Source: an uncultured Sphingomonadales bacterium
GTDB taxonomy: Bacteria > Pseudomonadota > Alphaproteobacteria > Sphingomonadales > Sphingomonadaceae
Length of the DNA: 64,000 nucleotides
Direction of reading: 5' to 3'
NCBI GenBank assembly: GCA_903821605.1
Contig: CAIJLZ010000013.1
Coordinates: 186,001 to 250,000, forward strand
The notes beneath the pieces are model-generated. The model saw only the letters and a program-made list of their open reading frames with translations, was not told the DNA's origin and did not search any database. Each line of letters starts with the position of its first letter. The first letter of the stretch is position 1. The translations under genes and the position numbers were made by a program. Positions 9,988 through 21,643 of this stretch are shown piece by piece.

Positions 9988-11541
9988 ATGTCCGAACCTT
10001 ATTACATCACCACCGCGATCAGCTATCCAAATGGTCGGCCGCATATTGGCCATGCCTATGAGGCGATTGCCGCCGATGCCATTGCGCGTTTTCACCGCAT
10101 GGCGGGGCGTGACGTGCGTTTCCAGACCGGCACCGACGAACATGGCCTGAAAATGGCGCAGACAGCACGTGATCGGGGCATTACGGCACGCGCGCTGTGC
10201 GATGAGATGTCGTCCTATTTCAAGGTGATGTGCGATACTCTTCATATTTCATATGATCGCTTTATCCGCACCACGGATGACGATCACAAAATCGCCTGTC
10301 AGGCCCTGTGGAAGGGCATGGTGGCGCGTGGCGACATTTATCTTGGCCGTTATGAGGGCTGGTATTCGGTCCGTGATGAAGCGTTCTACGACGAAAAGGA
10401 ACTGACCAAGGGGGAGGGTGAACAGCGCCTGTCTCCTCAGGGCACGCCGGTCGAATGGACGGTGGAGGAAAGCTGGTTTTTCCGCCTTTCGGCCTATCAG
10501 GACAAGCTGCTTGAGCTGTATCGTTCGCATCCCGAGTTTATCCAGCCGGAAAGCCGGCGTAACGAGGTGATCCGGTTCGTCGAGGGCGGGCTGTCAGACC
10601 TTTCGGTCTCGCGCACCAGCTTCGACTGGGGCATTGCGGTGCCGGACAGCCCTGGCCATGTGATGTATGTCTGGGTCGATGCGTTGACCAATTATCTGAC
10701 CGGCATCGGCTATCCGGCGCTTGATGGCACATTGGGCCGGTTCTGGCCGGCGGACGTCCATGTCATTGGCAAGGATATCGTGCGCTTTCACGCGGTATAT
10801 TGGCCCGCCTTCCTGATGAGCGCCGACGTGCCACTGCCCAAGCAAGTGTTCGGCCATGGCTTTCTGCTCCACAAGGGGGAGAAAATGTCGAAGTCGGTCG
10901 GTAATGTCGTCGATCCGATTGAACTCGCCAGCGTATTTGGCGTGGATCAACTGCGTTATTTCCTGCTGCGGGAAGTGAGCTTTGGTCAGGATGGCAGCTA
11001 TTCGGAAGACGCGATCGTCACCCGCTGCAACGCGGATCTTGCGAATAACCTTGGCAATCTTGCGCAGCGCAGCTTGTCGATGATCGCCAAAAATTGTGGC
11101 GGCAAGGTCCCACAGCCGCATGACGCCAGCGCAGCCGACACGGCGCTGTTGGCGGGTATTGCTGCCGTGGAGCAAGTCGCGCGCCAGCACATGATGGGCG
11201 GGCAATATGCCATCCACCACGCGTTACAGGCGATTTGGGAACAGATGAGCCTGACCAACCAGTATTTCGCCGAACAACAGCCTTGGGCGGTGCGCAAGAC
11301 CGATCCGGCGCGCGCCGACACGATCCTTTATTACACCGCAGAGGCCATCCGCCAGCTCGCGATTTTGGCGCGCTGGGTGATGCCCGTAAGTTGCGACAAG
11401 CTGCTCGACATTCTGGCCCAATCACCGGATGCGCGTGACTTTGCCGCACTTGGCCAGCAGCTGGAACCGGGCATCGACTTGCCGCCGCCAGCCCCGATTT
11501 TTCCCCGTCTCGAACTGGCCGCCGACGCAAAGGCAGATTGA
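9988..11541 (+). CDS. metG: Methionyl-tRNA synthetase
   Basis: A class I aminoacyl-tRNA synthetase of 517 residues that charges tRNA-Met. The HIGH signature is PHIGH at residues 18-22, and the KMSKS signature is [10 protein letters not shown] near residue 300. It is of the short type: there is no C-terminal tRNA-binding EMAP-like domain, and the zinc-knuckle insertion is reduced (around residues 115-150). The stop overlaps the tatD start as TGATG, suggesting coupling. Confidence 0.96.
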
Positions 11542-12317
11542 TGCTGATCGATTCCCATTGTCATCTAAATTACAAGGGGTTGGTCGAAGATCAGCAGGCC
11601 GTCATTGAACGCGCACGCGCGGCGGGGGTGACGGCGATGCTCAACATCTCGACCCGCGAACGCGAATGGGCGGATATTATCGCCACCGCCGAGCGTCACC
11701 CGGATGTCTGGGCATCGGTCGGCATTCATCCGCATGAAGCGGACGATCATGGCGATCTCCAACTTGAGCGGCTTATCGCGGCAGCATCCCATCCGAAGGT
11801 GGTGGCGATTGGCGAAACCGGTCTCGATTATTATTATGAACATAGCGACCGCAGCCGCCAGCAGGAAAGCTTCCGCCTTCATATCGCGGCAGCGCGCGAA
11901 ACGGGCTTGCCGCTGATCGTCCATACGCGCGATGCGGAAGAGGATAGCGCGGCCATTTTGCGCGATGAGATGGGGAAGGGGCCATTTACGGGCGTCATCC
12001 ACTGTTTCACCGCATCCGCAGCATTCGCCGCCATTGCGTTGGAATTAGGGTTTTTTATCTCGATTTCGGGTATCGTCACCTTCAAAAACGCCCATGATTT
12101 GCAAAACACGGCATCGACCCTGCCGCTGGACCGGCTGCTGGTTGAAACCGACGCGCCATTTCTTGCGCCGGTGCCGCATCGCGGCAAAACGGGAGAGCCC
12201 GGTTTTGTCGCTGATACGGCGAAATTTCTGGCCCAATTGCGCGGGGAGGGGATTGGCGATCTCCATGCCGCGACCAGTGCCAATTTCTACCGCTTGTTCA
12301 GCAAGGCCAAGCCATGA
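11541..12317 (+). CDS. tatD: TatD-family metal-dependent hydrolase
   Basis: A 258-residue TIM-barrel hydrolase. The metal ligands are visible in [10 protein letters not shown] (HxH), in GIHPHE, in GETGLDYYYEH, in VHTRDA and in ETDAPFLAP. TatD proteins are 3'-5' DNases or generic metallohydrolases; the exact substrate here is unknown. The ATG overlaps the metG stop (TGATG), and its own end overlaps the next gene by 4 bp, so metG, tatD and the following two genes look like one translation unit. Confidence 0.93.
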   Translation: MLIDSHCHLNYKGLVEDQQAVIERARAAGVTAMLNISTREREWADIIATAERHPDVWASVGIHPHEADDHGDLQLERLIAAASHPKVVAIGETGLDYYYEHSDRSRQQESFRLHIAAARETGLPLIVHTRDAEEDSAAILRDEMGKGPFTGVIHCFTASAAFAAIALELGFFISISGIVTFKNAHDLQNTASTLPLDRLLVETDAPFLAPVPHRGKTGEPGFVADTAKFLAQLRGEGIGDLHAATSANFYRLFSKAKP

Positions 12318-13078
12318 AACTCCGCATCCTGGGGTGTGGCACCTCGTCAGGCGTGCCGCGGATCGGCAATGATTGGGGCGATTGCGACCCCGCCAATCCG
12401 CGCAATCGGCGGATGCGGTCCTCGATTCTGGTCGAAACCAAGGACAGCCGTGTGCTGGTCGATACCACGCCGGATATGCGGGAACAGTTGCTCGCCGCCC
12501 ATGTCAGCGATGTCGATGCAGTGATCTGGACCCATGACCATGCTGATCATTGCCACGGCCTGGATGATTTACGGCAACTCTTTCACGCACGAGGGCGTCC
12601 GGTTCTCGGCTATGGCCGCCGCGAAACACTCGATACGTTGCAGCGGCGGTTTGACTATGCCTTTGCCGGTAAACATGGCTATCCGCCGACCGTCGAGGGC
12701 CGGTTATTGCCCGATCGGCTGGATCTTGGCGAGCTGGTGATCACCGTGGTGGATCAACCGCATGGCCTGACCAGTTCCACCGGGTTAATCTTCGAATCTG
12801 GTGGCAAGAAACTGATCTACTCAACAGATTTTAATGAGATCACGCCCGAGATGGAGGTCGCCTTTGCCGGGGCAGATTGTTGGGTTATCGACGCCTTGCG
12901 GCGGCGCCCACATCCGACCCACTGCCATCTTGAACAGTCGCTTGCGATGATTGCCAGCGTCAGGCCGCATCGCGCCTTGTTGACCCATATGGATCAAAGC
13001 ATGGACTATGCCACGCTTTGCGCCGAACTGCCGGCAGGGGTCGCACCCGCTTATGATGGGCTGGAGGTCGCATTCTGA
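12314..13078 (+). CDS. MBL-fold phosphodiesterase-like protein (PhnP-related)
   Basis: A 254-residue metallo-beta-lactamase fold hydrolase. The metal motif HxHxDH is residues 74-79 (HDHADH). The N-terminus MKLRILGCGTSSGVPRIGNDWGD is typical of the PhnP/YcbX-like group of cyclic-phosphodiesterases, cut short here. Further ligands are in VDQPHGLTSST, YSTDFNEI and HPTHCHLEQ. In alphaproteobacteria it commonly follows tatD without any phn genes nearby, so a role in phosphonate breakdown is not implied. The substrate is unknown. Confidence 0.82.
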   Translation: MKLRILGCGTSSGVPRIGNDWGDCDPANPRNRRMRSSILVETKDSRVLVDTTPDMREQLLAAHVSDVDAVIWTHDHADHCHGLDDLRQLFHARGRPVLGYGRRETLDTLQRRFDYAFAGKHGYPPTVEGRLLPDRLDLGELVITVVDQPHGLTSSTGLIFESGGKKLIYSTDFNEITPEMEVAFAGADCWVIDALRRRPHPTHCHLEQSLAMIASVRPHRALLTHMDQSMDYATLCAELPAGVAPAYDGLEVAF

Positions 13079-13677
13079 TGGGCACGGACCAGACCGCCCA
13101 GCTGGTCCAGACCGCGCTGGTGATGATCTTGGTGGTGAGCGCGCTCTTATCCCGGCGCTTGGCCTGGCGGCAGGTGCTGCGCATGGCGCTCGCCTGGTTG
13201 GCGATTTTCGCTCTCTTGTTGTTCGCCGTCGCACAGCGCGATCAGCTGGTCAGCGCGGTGCATGGATTATCCGCCCGAATGGGGCTGGCTGAGCAGCAGG
13301 CGAGCGCCGATGGGCGCGAGGTGGTGTTGCGGCGTGCGACGGATGGCCATTTTTGGGCGGAGGCGCGGATCAATGATCGTCCTTTGCGCATGATGATCGA
13401 CAGCGGGGCAAGCATCACCGCCATTTCCGAACAAGCACGCCTCCAACTCGGTTTAACCTCGCAATCGGGCTTCGGCGCTTTTGTCGAAACCGCCAATGGC
13501 CCGGTGAAGGTAGATCGCCTTCGGTTGCGCGAATTGGCCGTCGAGCAGATCGTCGCGCGCGATCTTGCGGCGGTAACATCACCCAACTTTGGCAACACCA
13601 ACGTGCTGGGGATGAACTTTCTCGACGGGTTGCAGAGTTGGACGGTCTCGGGGGACCGCATGACACTGCGGCCATGA
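13078..13677 (+). CDS. Retropepsin-like aspartic protease, membrane-anchored (TIGR02281 type)
   Basis: A 199-residue protein with two N-terminal hydrophobic helices (about residues 9-25 and 36-52), a linker, and a retropepsin-like fold. The catalytic Asp108-Ser109-Gly110 is in MMIDSGASITAIS, and the flap and the closing NVLGMNFLDGLQSWTV follow. The family would act as a homodimer on the periplasmic side. The start overlaps the preceding stop as TGATG. The physiological substrate is unknown. Confidence 0.82.
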   Translation: MGTDQTAQLVQTALVMILVVSALLSRRLAWRQVLRMALAWLAIFALLLFAVAQRDQLVSAVHGLSARMGLAEQQASADGREVVLRRATDGHFWAEARINDRPLRMMIDSGASITAISEQARLQLGLTSQSGFGAFVETANGPVKVDRLRLRELAVEQIVARDLAAVTSPNFGNTNVLGMNFLDGLQSWTVSGDRMTLRP

Positions 13678-13718
13678 GCTTTTATTTACATAATATATAT
13701 TATCGGGATTATCTCTAG

Positions 13719-14516
13719 ATGGCCGACAAGACCCCCCTGACGCCGAAATCCGCGCTTCTTGACCATGTCATGACGCATGACGGGATCGAGCGTTTGCGAG
13801 TCATCATGGCGGCACTGCGTCATCCGGACCATGGCTGTCCGTGGGATCGCGCCCAGAGCTTCGCGACGATTGCGCCTTATACGATTGAGGAAGCGCATGA
13901 GGTCGGCGATGCCATTGCGCGTGACGACATGGACGCGCTGTGCGATGAGCTTGGCGATCTGTTGCTCCAGGTCATTTATCACAGCCAAATGGCCAGCGAG
14001 GCTGACGCTTTCTCGCTGGATGACGTCATCCTTGGCATCTGTGCCAAGATGATCCGTCGTCATCCGCATGTGTTTGGCGATGGCGTGTCACCCGGTTGGG
14101 AACAGATTAAATCCGAAGAACGCGCACACAAGGGCGCAGATGATAGCGCCGTGGCTGGTGTGGCGCTTGGTCTGCCGGCACTGTTGCGCGCTGAAAAACT
14201 ACAACGACGTGCCGCCCGCACCGGATTTGATTGGCCGGATGCCGATGGCCCACGCGCCAAAGTTGCCGAGGAAATAGAAGAAATTGCAGCGGCTAGCTCT
14301 CATGGAGAACGAGAGGAAGAATTTGGCGATCTGCTCTTCTCGGTGGTCAATTGGGCGCGCCATGAAGGCGTCGATGCCGAAGCCGCGCTGCGCAATGCCA
14401 ATCTGAAATTTGAACGCCGTTTTCGCTTGATGGAGGAAATCGCAGGAAAACAGGCTTTTGCATCGGCCAGCCTCGATGAAAAGGAAGGCTATTGGCAGCA
14501 GGCAAAGCGGCGTTAG
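13719..14516 (+). CDS. mazG: Nucleoside triphosphate pyrophosphohydrolase MazG
   Basis: A 265-residue enzyme hydrolysing NTPs to NMP and pyrophosphate, with two MazG domains. The first has the metal-binding EExxE-type helix in YTIEEAHEVGDAIARDD and DELGDLLLQVIYHS. The second is in VAEEIEEIAAA and EEEFGDLLFSVVNWAR. The 41-bp gap before it is almost pure A/T in the middle (13682-13703), unlike the surrounding GC-rich DNA, and probably holds its promoter. It converges on hflX with 24 bp between the stops. Confidence 0.93.
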   Translation: MADKTPLTPKSALLDHVMTHDGIERLRVIMAALRHPDHGCPWDRAQSFATIAPYTIEEAHEVGDAIARDDMDALCDELGDLLLQVIYHSQMASEADAFSLDDVILGICAKMIRRHPHVFGDGVSPGWEQIKSEERAHKGADDSAVAGVALGLPALLRAEKLQRRAARTGFDWPDADGPRAKVAEEIEEIAAASSHGEREEEFGDLLFSVVNWARHEGVDAEAALRNANLKFERRFRLMEEIAGKQAFASASLDEKEGYWQQAKRR

Positions 14517-14540: not shown

Positions 14541-15845
14541 TCATCCGCCGATTTGCCGCCGCTGCCAGCGATCCCAGTCAACTTCGTTCAAACGCACGGC
14601 GACATGAATTTCTTCATTTTCACTATCTTGTGAAATAATATTCCCATGACGATGGAGCCATGAAAGCCCGGCGCCATCGCTCATATCGAGCACAAGATCA
14701 TGGATCCGCGCCCCTCCAAGCAGGCGGCTGGCAAGCATGTCCCGCAGCGCGTCGACCCCCTCGCCATTCAGCGCGGAGACCAGCGCGACATCGTCCCGCC
14801 GCTGCGCTTCCGCAATCGCATGGGTTGCCGCCTCTACGTCGAGCAGATCGATCTTGTTCCAAATTTCGATAATCGGCGCGCCATCAGGGCCGCCAACACC
14901 GATTTCACCCAGAACCGTCTTCACATCCTCCGCCTGCGCATCGCTATCAGCATGGGCGATATCGCGCACATGCAGGATCAGATCGGCCGAAATCACTTCT
15001 TCAAGCGTCGCCCGAAAGGCGGCAACCAGCTGGGTCGGGAGATTGGAGACGAAACCCACGGTATCCGACAGGATCGCCTTGTTGATGCCCGGCAAGGTGA
15101 CGGCCCGCATGGTCGGGTCGAGTGTCGCGAACAACAGATCTTCCGCCAGCACGTCGGCCTGCGTCATGAGGTTGAACAATGTCGACTTGCCAGCATTGGT
15201 ATAGCCGACCAGCGCAATCACCGGCCAAGGGGCCTTGTGTCGCCGGGCACGGTGCAGCGCGCGGGTTCGGGTCACCTGTTCCAATTCGCGCCGCAGCTTG
15301 GCCATGCGGTCGCGGATCAGGCGGCGATCGGCCTCAATCTGGGTTTCGCCGGGGCCGCCGAGAAAGCCAAAGCCGCCGCGCTGGCGTTCAAGGTGGGTCC
15401 AACTGCGCACCAGTCGGCCCGCCTGATAATCAAGATGCGCCAGTTCGACTTGCAATCGACCTTCGGCCGTCGCCGCGCGTTCGCCAAAGATTTCAAGGAT
15501 AAGCCCGGTACGATCAATGACCTTGGCTTCAAGCGCGCGTTCCAGATTGCGTTGCTGGATTGCCGTCAACGAGGCGTCGACAATAATCAGGTCCGCTTCG
15601 TGCATCGTCACGTCAAGCTTGACCATGTCAATCTGGCCAGAGCCGATCAGCGTGCCGGCCTTGGGCGAACGGATCCGAAACGCGTGGCGCGCAACAACCT
15701 CAATCCCAATCGCTTCGGCCAAGCCTACGGCTTCGTCAAGGCGCGCGTCCTGATGGCGACGATCACCGCCAAAGTCGGGGAGCACCAAAATGGAACGTGC
15801 ACCCCGACCGAAGCCATCTTTTTCCGTTCGATTGAAGAGGCTCAA
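14541..15845 (-). CDS. hflX: GTPase HflX
   Basis: A 434-residue ribosome-associated GTPase. The HflX-specific N-terminal domain leads to the coiled linker ([19 protein letters not shown]) and the G domain with G1 [13 protein letters not shown]3 DTVGF and G4 NKIDLL. Relatives split stalled or heat-damaged ribosomes. The start is a TTG that overlaps the hfq stop, with AGGA 7 bases before it inside hfq. No in-frame ATG is available near the N-terminus, so the TTG is likely real. It is the last gene of the ntr-hfq-hflX block. Confidence 0.93.
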
Positions 15846-16330
15846 TCCGCGTCCTGCGCTTCTTCATAGGCCGCAAGATCGATGGTGCGGCTGGGCTGGA
15901 TCGTCGAGATGGCGTGCTTATAGACCAGCTGGACCATGTTGTCGCGACGGAGCAGCATGCAGAACAGATCGAACGCCGCGACCTCGCCCTGCAACATCAC
16001 GCCGTTGACGAGGAACATGGTGACATAGTCCTGTTCCTTCTTGATCGCGCCAAGGAACACGTCTTGCAGTTGCTGCTGCTTACGCTCGCCGATCGTGATC
16101 TTGTCGACATTGTCCATCGGCATCGGCTGGGCCGGCATGATGGTCGAGATCGCATGCTTGTACACCAATTGCGACTGGCCGTCGCGGCGCAGCAGGAGCG
16201 AAAAATTGTCGAACCAGGTGATGATCCCCTGGAGCTTGACGCCCTTCACCAAAAACATGGTGACCGGAATTTTCTGCTTCCTGAGGGCGTTCAGGAACAA
16301 GTCTTGTAAAATATTGACCTTCTCAGCCAT
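15842..16330 (-). CDS. hfq: Tandem-Sm RNA chaperone Hfq (two Hfq domains in one chain)
   Basis: A 162-residue protein made of two complete Hfq modules with a period of 80 residues. The first spans about 7-65 and the second about 86-145. Both carry the Sm1 core ([12 protein letters not shown] and [12 protein letters not shown]) and the Sm2 signature YKHAIST at 57-63 and 137-143. The proximal-face Gln-Asp is at 9-10 and 89-90. The rim patch is RKQK in domain 1 and KKEQ in domain 2. Ordinary Hfq has a single module of about 70-100 residues and forms a hexamer; this one would form a trimer of two-module chains. GGAGG precedes the ATG. It sits between ntrX and hflX. The assembly state is inference. 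Confidence 0.95.
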
Positions 16331-16460
16331 ATTGGCCTCCGGTTCTATTGGCGGAACAATGTCCGCTTTGGCGCCGTTGCCCGGCGTCGTGCGTCCCAGA
16401 GGATTCCCTGAGGTGGCTTAACTGTTACCCGTTTGCCACGCGGTCGTCCACCCCCGAAGA

Positions 16461-17852
16461 TCAGCTGTTGTCGGTCTCGTCGCTGCGAATATCACTCAGC
16501 CCCAACAGCTTGAGCTTGCGATGCAGGGCAGATCGCTCCATCCCGACAAAGGTCGCGGTGCGGGAAATATTGCCCGAAAAGCGCCGGACCTGCACCCGCA
16601 GATATTCGCGTTCGAAACTTTCACGCGCCTCGCGCAGCGGTGACGTCATGATGGTCATCAGCCCCTGATCCATGCGGATCGACCCGGTATCCATCACTTC
16701 AGGCGGCAGCATTTCCGCCTCGATCCGGACATTCGGATCGGTCGGTGCCAGGATTAAAATGCGTTCAACGATATTGCGCAACTGCCGGACGTTGCCCGGC
16801 CAATCATAGGCTTGCAGCGCTGCCATCGCCTCTTCTGTAAAGTTCGGCGGGGCAATCCGGCGTTCCGCGGAAAAACGCGCCGTGAAATGGTCGACCAGTG
16901 CCGGGATATCGCCGCGCCGTTGTTGTAGCGGAGGCAGCAGTACCGGCACGACATTGAGGCGATAGAAGAGGTCTTCGCGGAACACACCCTCGGCAATACG
17001 CGAGGGCAGATCCTGTGCAGTGGCCGATACCACGCGCAGATCAACCTTGACCATGCGGGTGCCGCCCAGCCGGGAAAAGCTCTGGTCCGTCAGCACGCGC
17101 AGGATCTTGGCCTGGGTGGTGAGCGGCATATCCGCCACTTCATCAAGGAACAAGGTGCCGCCATGCGCCTGTTCCAGCAACCCGGCACGGACAAGTTGGC
17201 CATTTTCCTCGACGCCGAATAATTCTTCCTCAACCCGGATCGGGTCCATGCGGGCGGCACTCACCACCACGAACGGCGCCTCTGAGCGATGCGACCATTT
17301 GTGCAGCAGGCGCGCGGCCACCTCTTTGCCAACGCCTGCCGGGCCGGTGATCATGACGCGACTGCCGGTAGCGGAAACCTTCTTGAGCGTGGCCCGCACG
17401 GCGTTGATATGCGCGGACGTGCCGGTGAGTTCATCTTCCTGCCCGACAATCGCCTTAAGCGAGGCATTTTCGCTGCGCAGCCGCTCGGTTTCGGTCGCGC
17501 GTTCGACCATATAAAGCAGGCGTTCGGCCTCAAACGGCTTTTCGATGAAGTCGGTGGCACCCCGACGGATCGCGGCCACTGCCGTATCGATATTGCCATG
17601 GCCGGAGATTACCAGCACCGGCAAACGTGGATCACGCGCCTTCAACTCATCCAGCAAATCCATGCCATCAAGCCGCGACCCATGGAGCCAGACATCGAGC
17701 AGCACCAGCGACGGTCGCCGCTCGGCAATGGCGCCAAGGGCGGCGTCGCTATCGGCGGCGGTGCGGACGGTATAGCCCTCATCCTCCAACACGCCGGAAA
17801 CGAGTTCGCGGATATCAGCTTCATCATCGACGACCAGAATGTCCAAGCTCAT
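16461..17852 (-). CDS. ntrX: Response regulator NtrX
   Basis: A 463-residue regulator. The receiver domain has phosphoacceptor Asp53 in LLDVWLHG. The AAA+ domain has a Walker A variant GPAGVGKE and Walker B GGTLFLDEVADMP. A Fis-type HTH lies at the C-terminus (TATFVGMERSALHRKLKLLG). The sigma-54 contact loop GAFTGA is missing; the corresponding stretch reads LFGVEENGQLVRAGLLEQ. It starts in a 4-bp overlap with ntrY, its cognate kinase. A 130-bp gap separates it from hfq. The family controls respiration, envelope or nitrogen genes in alphaproteobacteria. Confidence 0.93.
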   Translation of the reverse strand: MSLDILVVDDEADIRELVSGVLEDEGYTVRTAADSDAALGAIAERRPSLVLLDVWLHGSRLDGMDLLDELKARDPRLPVLVISGHGNIDTAVAAIRRGATDFIEKPFEAERLLYMVERATETERLRSENASLKAIVGQEDELTGTSAHINAVRATLKKVSATGSRVMITGPAGVGKEVAARLLHKWSHRSEAPFVVVSAARMDPIRVEEELFGVEENGQLVRAGLLEQAHGGTLFLDEVADMPLTTQAKILRVLTDQSFSRLGGTRMVKVDLRVVSATAQDLPSRIAEGVFREDLFYRLNVVPVLLPPLQQRRGDIPALVDHFTARFSAERRIAPPNFTEEAMAALQAYDWPGNVRQLRNIVERILILAPTDPNVRIEAEMLPPEVMDTGSIRMDQGLMTIMTSPLREARESFEREYLRVQVRRFSGNISRTATFVGMERSALHRKLKLLGLSDIRSDETDNS

Positions 17853-20140
17853 GCGTCTGTCCGTTTCCTGGGGTTCATGCTCGGCAGCGGGTCATCATCT
17901 TGATGCACCACCCCGGTTTCCTCATCATCTTCAACATGCAGGCGTTGTAGCGCCGCCGTATCGAACTGCATCATCACGACGGCGCCCTGACCCAATCGGT
18001 CGGTGAAGCGCAGCGTACCGCAATGTTCCTCGACAATCTTGCGGACGATGGCGAGGCCAAGGCCGGTCCCGCCGATCCGCGTTGTCATATAGGGTTCGGT
18101 CATCCGCTCGCGCTCTTTGGGCAGGCCGATGCCGTTGTCGACCACCATGACCGAGAGTTTTTCCCCCTCTTCGATCATCGTCACCTCAATCGTGCCTTGA
18201 TGGCCCGGCTGCTGTTGGACGCGGGACTCAATCGCCTCGATAGCGTTCTTGATGATGTTGATCAGGGCTTGGCTGACCTGCCGACGGTCGCAGACCATGC
18301 TGGGCAAGGTGTCGGGCAAGTCGATCGAAAAATTGATCTCCGGATGACCAACTTCTTGCAGGAATGTCGTCTGGCGCACGATGTCGACAATCGATTCCTG
18401 ACGGAAAAATGGCTTGGGCATGCGCGCGAAGGACGAAAATTCGTCCACCATCCGCCGCAGATCGCCAACCTGACGCACGATGGTCGATGTCAACTGGGCG
18501 AAGACCGTATCGTCTTCGGGCATGTTACGTCCATAGCGCCGCTGGAGCCGTTCCGCCGCGAGTTGGATCGGGGTTAGCGGGTTTTTGATTTCGTGCGCAA
18601 TCCGCCGTGCAACGTCGGACCAGGCGGCCGTGCGCTGATCGGCGAGACGTTGGGTAATGTCGTCAAAGGTCAAGACCGCACCCGTATCGGTCTGGCCGAC
18701 CTTAACCGCCAAGGTGCGTGGCTCCTCATTGACCACCATGGTGACAATGGCATCGCGCTGGTCATTGACGACCACGGCATCAAGTTCCGGCACCGCATCT
18801 TCCAGCCGGGCATCGATCAGCCCCTCTTCGGCGCGCGCCAGCATCGCAAGCGCCGAGCGGTTGACGAGCCGGATTTCACGCTGTTCATTGAGCGCGATCA
18901 CGCCGGCAGACACGCTGGTTAGCACCGCTTCGATCAGCTCGCGCCGACGATCAAGCAAGGCATTCGCCCGCATCAACGCGCCGGTCTGTTCCGAGAGGCG
19001 GCGCGTCATGCGGTTAAACGCATTGGCGAGCGTGCCAATCTCGTCCCGGCTGTTGAGATGGGTGACGCGCGCGTTCAAATCGCCCTCGGCCACGCTGCGG
19101 GCCGCATCGACCAACGCATTGACCGGGCGCACCACACGGTCGGCCACGCGATAGGCGATAAACATCGCAATGCCGACAATGGCGAGCGAAAGCACAAGTA
19201 GCGCTGCGATGAAGCGCAACTGCAACGACCGCGCCCGGCCAAGCAACTGGTGATAGTCGCCAAGCGCGGTCTTGGCGCGGGCAATCTGTGCCAAGACCGC
19301 CGGGTCAACCGCGCGCGAGACATAGAGAAACAGCATGCCCGACCGATCAAGCACGGTAATCGCCTCAACCCGGTCGACTGCATCATGGATCGACACCGGT
19401 CGACCGCTACGCAGCGCGACAAGCGCCGCCTGCGGCATACGTTCCTGCAACCCGCGCGAATCCAGATTGGCCCCGGCCACCAGCCGCCGTGCGCCATCCG
19501 GGCCAATCGAAACGACCGCCGCTTCGGACAGGTTGCGCGCCGCGACCTGCCACGCCAGCCCTTGGGCGAAATTCGGGTCTTCAATGCCGAAATTGCGGCC
19601 ATAGCCAGCGACATCGCCGGCCATCGCCTCGATATCAGCGCCGACCCGGGTGCGATTTTCCGCGACATAGGCCGTCGCGACCTGATCGGCGTTGAGCAGC
19701 ACCGTTCGCGCCTTGTCGGAGAACCAGAAGTCGACGCCATATTGGAACAGCATCGCCGCAAACGCCGCGACGAATAGTGTCGGTACTGCTGACAAGAATG
19801 AAAATAGCGCGACCAGCCGAACATGCAGGCGCCCGCGCCCGTCGCCCGGCATCTCGGAAATGCGCCGTAGCGCAAGCCGTCTGGCGACCAGCACCATCAG
19901 GCAGATCACCGGCACGAGATTGAGAATGAGCAGGAACGCGACTGTCACCGGCGTCAACAGCCGGTCGAGCGATCCATTTTGCCGCACCAGATAATAATAA
20001 GTGAACAGGCCGACCAGAATAGCGGTCGCGACGACCGCGCGTTCAAGCCAAGGGATGAACATCCGCGAGCGCGACAAAGACTGCATCCGGCGGACCAGTT
20101 GCTGCCAAATTGAACCTACCATCGGACCGCTGCGCATCAT
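17849..20140 (-). CDS. ntrY: Membrane sensor histidine kinase NtrY
   Basis: About 763 residues. Hydrophobic helices lie in the first ~100 residues and another near residue 300 after a periplasmic sensor part. HAMP (VADRVVRPVNALVDAARSVA), PAS and HisKA with the phosphorylated His in IAHEIKNPLTPIQLAAERLQ follow, then HATPase boxes NIIKNAIEAI, DNGIGLP and GGTGLGLAIVRK. It phosphorylates NtrX. The open frame extends to a TTG three codons upstream, but an ATG pair is available at 20140/20137. None has a clear ribosome-binding site, so the start is uncertain. The gene follows ntrC after about 50 bp. Confidence 0.93.
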   Translation of the reverse strand: MMRSGPMVGSIWQQLVRRMQSLSRSRMFIPWLERAVVATAILVGLFTYYYLVRQNGSLDRLLTPVTVAFLLILNLVPVICLMVLVARRLALRRISEMPGDGRGRLHVRLVALFSFLSAVPTLFVAAFAAMLFQYGVDFWFSDKARTVLLNADQVATAYVAENRTRVGADIEAMAGDVAGYGRNFGIEDPNFAQGLAWQVAARNLSEAAVVSIGPDGARRLVAGANLDSRGLQERMPQAALVALRSGRPVSIHDAVDRVEAITVLDRSGMLFLYVSRAVDPAVLAQIARAKTALGDYHQLLGRARSLQLRFIAALLVLSLAIVGIAMFIAYRVADRVVRPVNALVDAARSVAEGDLNARVTHLNSRDEIGTLANAFNRMTRRLSEQTGALMRANALLDRRRELIEAVLTSVSAGVIALNEQREIRLVNRSALAMLARAEEGLIDARLEDAVPELDAVVVNDQRDAIVTMVVNEEPRTLAVKVGQTDTGAVLTFDDITQRLADQRTAAWSDVARRIAHEIKNPLTPIQLAAERLQRRYGRNMPEDDTVFAQLTSTIVRQVGDLRRMVDEFSSFARMPKPFFRQESIVDIVRQTTFLQEVGHPEINFSIDLPDTLPSMVCDRRQVSQALINIIKNAIEAIESRVQQQPGHQGTIEVTMIEEGEKLSVMVVDNGIGLPKERERMTEPYMTTRIGGTGLGLAIVRKIVEEHCGTLRFTDRLGQGAVVMMQFDTAALQRLHVEDDEETGVVHQDDDPLPSMNPRKRTDA

Positions 20141-20194
20141 TGTGGCCAAACTAACACAATGTCGCGAAACTGCAACAGCTATGACCCGTCACAG

Positions 20195-21639
<1,445 letters not shown>

Positions 21640-21643
<4 letters not shown>

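Follow-up and report, generated by a model that had tools for sequence, protein, structure and literature searches.

The window, a stretch of 64,000 nucleotides, carries on its minus strand an hfq gene whose single uninterrupted frame, opening with ATG, encodes two Hfq domains in one chain. Hfq is an RNA matchmaker and normally forms a ring of six identical subunits. The parts of the gene and its nearest neighbours are listed below, with single residue positions (28, 31, 63) in E. coli numbering and the basis of each assignment in brackets.

14541..15845, minus strand: hflX, directly downstream of hfq, its TTG start overlapping the hfq stop (ORF list, loci comparison)
15842..16330, minus strand: hfq, a single chain of 162 aa with two Hfq (Sm-like) domains (ORF list, PF17209, NF010691)
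15845..15892, minus strand: acidic tail of 16 aa, following domain 2 at the C-terminus (charge computation)
15893..16069, minus strand: domain 2 core, residues 88-146, acidified, with weakened rim, N28/M31 and Q63 (profile, alignment, AlphaFold2 Sm fold)
15995..16006, minus strand: distal-face NGVM of domain 2, residues 109-112 (alignment)
16031..16042, minus strand: rim KKEQ of domain 2, residues 97-100, a weakened basic patch (alignment)
16070..16132, minus strand: linker, residues 67-87 (21 aa), basic near its end (charge computation)
16133..16309, minus strand: basic core of domain 1, residues 8-66, carrying K28/K31 and the rim RKQK (profile, alignment, AlphaFold2 Sm fold)
16235..16246, minus strand: distal-face KGVK of domain 1, residues 29-32, with K at positions 28 and 31 (alignment)
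16271..16282, minus strand: rim patch RKQK of domain 1, residues 17-20 (alignment)
16336..16340, minus strand: GGAGG, the likely ribosome-binding site of hfq, five bases upstream of its ATG (read from sequence)
16461..17852, minus strand: ntrX, upstream of hfq (ORF list, loci comparison)

The protein was matched by PF17209 (Hfq) in two stretches (189.3 bits, E 7.3e-57; cut-off 27), by TIGR02383 (177.9 bits; cut-off 61.7) and by NF010691, the NCBIfam model of two-domain Hfq (PRK14091.1, RNA chaperone Hfq, 176 positions), with 290 bits against a cut-off of 270 over profile positions 16-175. It is a member of NF010691 with no difference found and, judged from its sequence, an ordinary representative of the known two-domain architecture. 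The first-pass annotation had described two full Hfq modules in one frame, each with the QD and YKHAIST motifs, and rims that differ between them. All of this was recovered: the two QD pairs (residues 9-10 and 89-90) and the two YKHAIST motifs (57-63 and 137-143) are each spaced by exactly 80 residues, and the rim is RKQK at residues 17-20 and KKEQ at 97-100. The core residues Q8 and Y55-K56-H57 are present in both domains, and domain 2 retains both arginines before position 48. A PF17209 search of the 19 contigs of the same genome returned two matches (16121-16309 and 15881-16069), both within the hfq frame, and no second Hfq locus.

The stop codon of hfq overlaps the TTG start of hflX within the bases TTGA (15842-15845), and this overlap suggests that translation of the two genes is coupled. 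In all 138 loci compared, the gene immediately following hfq on its strand is hflX, with an estimated gap of at most 247 bases. The ntrX gene was present in 109 of the 138 examined stretches around hfq, the 29 misses comprising 27 single-domain loci and the loci L003 and L004. Upstream of hfq in the window, three genes stand in a row on the hfq strand (16461-21643), namely ntrX, ntrC and, at the place of ntrY, a gene for a histidine kinase; for the kinase, no model exceeded its cut-off among the 25 NCBIfam models listed. Genes for a TatD-family nuclease and an MBL-fold hydrolase, together with mazG, occupy the plus strand at 11538-14516 and are convergent with hflX.

Distribution and origin of the two-domain form

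Tandem Hfq is reportedly mentioned in a survey of 2002. The only description of it that we found in the open-access literature is that of Yang et al. 2010 (PMC2877685), whose available text reports two Sm-like domains in the Hfq of Zymomonas and of six other Sphingomonadales, and asks whether three chains suffice to make a ring. The first-pass annotation mentioned a fused Hfq from a relative of Novosphingobium; Novosphingobium loci do encode the two-domain form, but the printed source that we located concerns Zymomonas (PMC2877685).

In total, 138 Hfq proteins were read at the level of domains, namely that of the window and those of 137 other genomes, with low scorers deliberately included, and 94 of them contained two domains in one open frame. 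This excludes a sequencing error or lost stop codon, the event named in the first-pass annotation as able to overturn its reading, as the source of the tandem frame. The domain count across Sphingomonadales that it had proposed was based on an order draw of 296 genomes, 213 of the window's family and 83 of other families. Each of the 213 family genomes contained exactly one Hfq match. The NF010691 cut-off was exceeded in 172 of them; of the 41 below it, 11 were single-domain proteins, 27 proved on direct reading to have two domains, and three scored like two-domain proteins. The tandem form therefore occurs in 202 of the 213 family genomes (94 read at domain level, including the window, and 108 assigned by score), which bears out the earlier suggestion of a lineage trait. 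Outside the family, no protein exceeded the cut-off among the 83 genomes of the order draw, the 380 of the class draw (best about 147 bits) or the 379 of the phylum draw (best 145.7 bits), draws that overlap one another and all lie within one phylum. The best 80 named loci were two-domain without exception (80/80), and because of the genera among them (Sphingobium, Sphingomonas, Novosphingobium, Erythrobacter, Sphingopyxis, Blastomonas, Porphyrobacter, Qipengyuania and others) the family of the window is taken to be the Sphingomonadaceae in the wide sense.

A tree built by a quick method from HflX and NtrX (79 rows) united the 54 two-domain rows in one clade with support of 100, and a single change between single and double Hfq is sufficient to explain the distribution on it. 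The family has 11 single-domain members on this tree, of which ten branch before the two-domain clade and one groups with the outgroup. By this evidence the two-domain Hfq has one origin, inside the family of the window. The opposite course, in which the single-domain members of the family are products of a loss of domain 2, is not favoured, both on account of these branching positions and because all 11 carry N28, K31 and M63 and none has the K28 of domain 1.

The tree of domains 1 and 2 recommended in the first-pass annotation was computed from 62 columns, with 44 domains of each kind and without the genus g13, whose 22 two-domain proteins are fast-evolving. It was informative in part: domains 1 formed one clade (95) and domains 2 another (100), but the relation between the two clades was left unsettled, since a topology test rejected neither the grouping of domains 1 and 2 together (p 0.67) nor that of domain 2 with the outgroup singles (p 0.82). 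Domain 2 was nearer to single-domain proteins of the family (0.639) than to those of other alphaproteobacteria (0.617) or to E. coli (0.519). A foreign origin of domain 2 is thus not favoured, although the domain tree is undecided. Most likely, a single hfq gene was duplicated in place in an ancestor inside the family and the copies became fused; the fused protein is the sole Hfq of the cell.

Residue and charge differences between the domains

The comparison of residues and charges covered 72 two-domain proteins, those of genus g13 being set apart, and 44 single-domain proteins. The claim that the two modules are non-identical was substantiated by differences that are fixed, or nearly so, across the whole set. 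Position 28 is K in 72/72 domains 1 and N in 72/72 domains 2, position 31 is K and M, respectively, in the same proportions, and position 63 is M in 69/72 domains 1 and Q in 72/72 domains 2. Since N28, K31 and M63 are each present in 44/44 single-domain proteins, the change at position 28 is assigned to domain 1 and those at positions 31 and 63 to domain 2. Further differences are less strict: position 38 is W but A in 64/72 domains 2, position 41 is N but L in 68/72 domains 2, and the first of the two arginines before position 48, which aligns with R49 of Caulobacter Hfq, is R in 72/72 domains 1 and E in 57/72 domains 2. The residues Q8, Q33, Q52, Y55, K56, H57, S60 and T61 are kept in 72/72 proteins in both domains.

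The two-domain architecture as such is known. What appears to be new is the lineage-wide division of residues and charge between the domains, for which we found no earlier description in the open-access literature (subscription papers lay outside the search). The exceptionless distal-face contrast at positions 28 and 31, the sharing-out of basic rim and acidic tail, and the NCBIfam model all go beyond the first-pass annotation. The Zymomonas mobilis protein ZMO0347 resembles that of the window in having two Sm-like domains per chain within the Sphingomonadales; it was compared by its description, and the available text of PMC2877685 mentions neither differences between its domains nor a partition of rim and tail.

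The partition of charge is equally consistent. The mean net charge of the core is +4.83 in domain 1 (range 4 to 5), -1.54 in domain 2 (-4 to +1) and +3.98 in single-domain proteins. The contrast between the rims noted for the window extends over the family, the mean charge of positions 16-19 being +2.83 in domain 1 and +0.29 in domain 2, with +2.93 in the singles. A basic residue occupies each of positions 16, 17 and 19 in 72/72 domains 1 and 44/44 singles, as against 1/72 domains 2, where none of the three is basic in 10 proteins, one in 37 and two in 24. One or two basic positions are thus kept in 61/72 domains 2, and as R16 is still R in 52/72, the rim of domain 2 is, to judge from the alignment, weakened rather than erased. 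The linker has 20-24 residues in 72/72 proteins, a mean charge of +0.21 and, in 72/72, a positive charge over its last six residues; it stands where single-domain Hfq has its acidic tail (mean -3.75, negative in 44/44). The tail after domain 2 averages -5.58 and is negative in 72/72. A second computation, on 62 of the best 80 named loci (overlapping the first set), gave +0.02 for the linker, -6.03 for the tail, and +2.90 versus +0.65 for the rims of domains 1 and 2; in this named set the charge of the domain 2 rim spans -2 to +3. Whereas single-domain Hfq has its rim and acidic tail on one subunit, each tandem chain has, by its composition, a single full basic rim and a single acidic tip, located on different domains.

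These data bear on the reading that domain 2 has been released from constraint and simply takes up room in the ring, so that the asymmetry would reflect decay without function; we regard this as unlikely. Domain 2 does evolve faster (dN/dS 0.193, compared with 0.093 for domain 1, from 662 non-independent pairs), mean identity is 0.75 among domains 2 and 0.89 among domains 1, and the rim positions of domain 2 vary widely. Both ratios nevertheless lie far below 1, and by this measure both domains are under purifying selection. Moreover, N28, M31 and Q63 are fixed in 72/72 domains 2, the core residues Q8, Q33, Q52, Y55, K56 and H57 are retained there without exception, and the gain of K28 in domain 1 (72/72) is no sign of decay in domain 2.

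A possible ring with two kinds of subunit

The AlphaFold2 model of the window protein contains two Sm folds, each with a helix and five strands (pLDDT 88.2, pTM 0.83), joined by a linker of low confidence (residues 82-84 under 50). The pTM value points to a confident positioning of the two domains relative to each other and is not proof that they are placed in this way in a ring. Domain 1 superimposes on the Caulobacter crescentus Hfq 6GWK with an rmsd of 0.4-0.7; this entry headed the Foldseek list and tied for best in another fold search. The fold searches were filled by matches of domain 1 and have no bearing on domain 2 or on the arrangement of the domains. No solved tandem Hfq structure was present among the 35 matched PDB sequences, whose chains have at most 114 residues.

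Caulobacter Hfq is also the best sequence match of domain 1, and has a basic rim and an acidic tail tip in common with the tandem protein; by alignment it has the single-domain state N28, K31 and M63. It has one domain per chain, so that rim and tip are found on every subunit (PMC6561178). As reported in the same source, the acidic tip of its tail packs on the basic rim of the adjacent protomer, and annealing varies with how many arginines the rim has (PMC6561178). It is this packing on a neighbour that suggests an alternating ring for the tandem protein. The first-pass annotation had itself put forward a trimer and, as a possibility, asymmetric sRNA annealing, both at the level of prediction.

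The most likely assembly would be a pseudo-hexamer of three chains, with domain 1 and domain 2 taking turns around the ring. Both domains keep the core residues known for binding U-tails on the proximal face and purines in the pockets of the distal face. Annealing would be concentrated on domain 1, the sole keeper of a full basic rim, and the acidic tip, which in single-domain Hfq inhibits the rim and here follows domain 2, would dock on the domain 1 rim of the next chain. With one full rim and one inhibitor per chain, such a ring would display three full rims instead of six. The former tail of domain 1, which would have faced the weakened rim of domain 2, would have become the linker to domain 2. 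That basic annealing domains alternate with acidified domains bearing inhibitory tails, the full rims being halved in number and each being regulated by the adjacent subunit, is proposed tentatively, and we rate its chances at slightly under even. We lean, by a modest degree, towards the joint explanation that combines fusion in place, a three-chain alternating ring, annealing rims on domain 1 and inhibitory tails on domain 2.

With its 20-24 residues the linker leaves room for many arrangements, and an improbable one is that six chains form two separate rings, one of domains 1 and one of domains 2, joined like beads, the former being a basic ring that works on RNA and the latter its acidic partner. 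In its favour, either kind of domain is consistent in itself, and domain 1 is close to single-domain Hfq (identity 0.81). Against it, the pTM value suggests a fixed placement of both domains within the chain, and a ring of domains 2 would combine a net negative core (-1.54 per domain) with retained RNA-binding core residues; neither point is decisive. Cleavage of the chain in the cell into two Hfq proteins of about 80 residues that mix freely is very improbable, for despite the low predicted confidence of the linker its length stays within 20-24 residues in 72/72 proteins.

Certain observations speak against the alternating ring. R16 persists in most domains 2, and in the window itself domain 2 has KKEQ together with both arginines. 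In addition, the partition of charge is weaker in genus g13 (linker -1.41, tail -2.59), even though K28 is found there in 22/22 domains 1 and N28 in 21/22 domains 2. Nine of the 22 g13 genomes (L062, L068-L075) have lost the acidic tail, of which 1-5 residues are left, and the rim of domain 1 averages +1.89 in these nine proteins versus +3.00 in the other 13. Their domain 1 also shows W38 replaced by G (9/9), K31 by R (9/9), K19 by G (5/9) and H57 by Q (4/9), and the function of Hfq is possibly shifting in this lineage. The joint loss of the tail and of rim charge in domain 1 fits the alternating ring but may represent one event.

Some indication of what the individual changes might cost is provided by E. 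coli Hfq, in which, according to a preprint (PMC12262471), R16A is the costliest rim change and abolishes nearly all sRNA-mRNA chimeras, while K31A reduces chimeras almost four-fold and yet is mild in reporter tests. As K31A is mild in those tests, the effect of the changes at positions 28 and 31 may be subtle. Further rim and distal-face mutants of Hfq are found in PMC5348863. In Zymomonas, an hfq mutant is reported to be more sensitive to several inhibitors (PMC2877685), and in Sphingopyxis granuli TFA repression of thnR by the sRNA SuhB is Hfq-dependent, as stated in a review (PMC6563040). The Sphingopyxis loci among the best 80 named ones encode two-domain Hfq, which is genus-level evidence for S. 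granuli. On the strength of the mutant phenotype and the SuhB-thnR case, tandem Hfq probably works as an sRNA chaperone.

The six-fold symmetry of the Hfq ring makes the effects of single subunits hard to separate. A chain that covalently fixes two kinds of subunit would render the number of rims, the inhibition by tails and the charge of the distal face testable subunit by subunit. The questions of 2010, namely whether three chains make up a ring and why there are two domains, can now be reduced to tests at the level of residues.

Eukaryotic Sm/LSm hetero-rings are composed of non-identical Sm subunits in a fixed order, as seven different proteins. If the alternating ring is right, tandem Hfq would resemble them in its non-identical subunits and differ from them in that its subunits are repeats in one chain. 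Should the proposed ring prove true, the bacteria concerned, which include an ethanol producer and pollutant degraders, would possess a fixed, family-wide division of labour within Hfq, following a logic like that by which Sm rings passed from homo-oligomers to hetero-oligomers.
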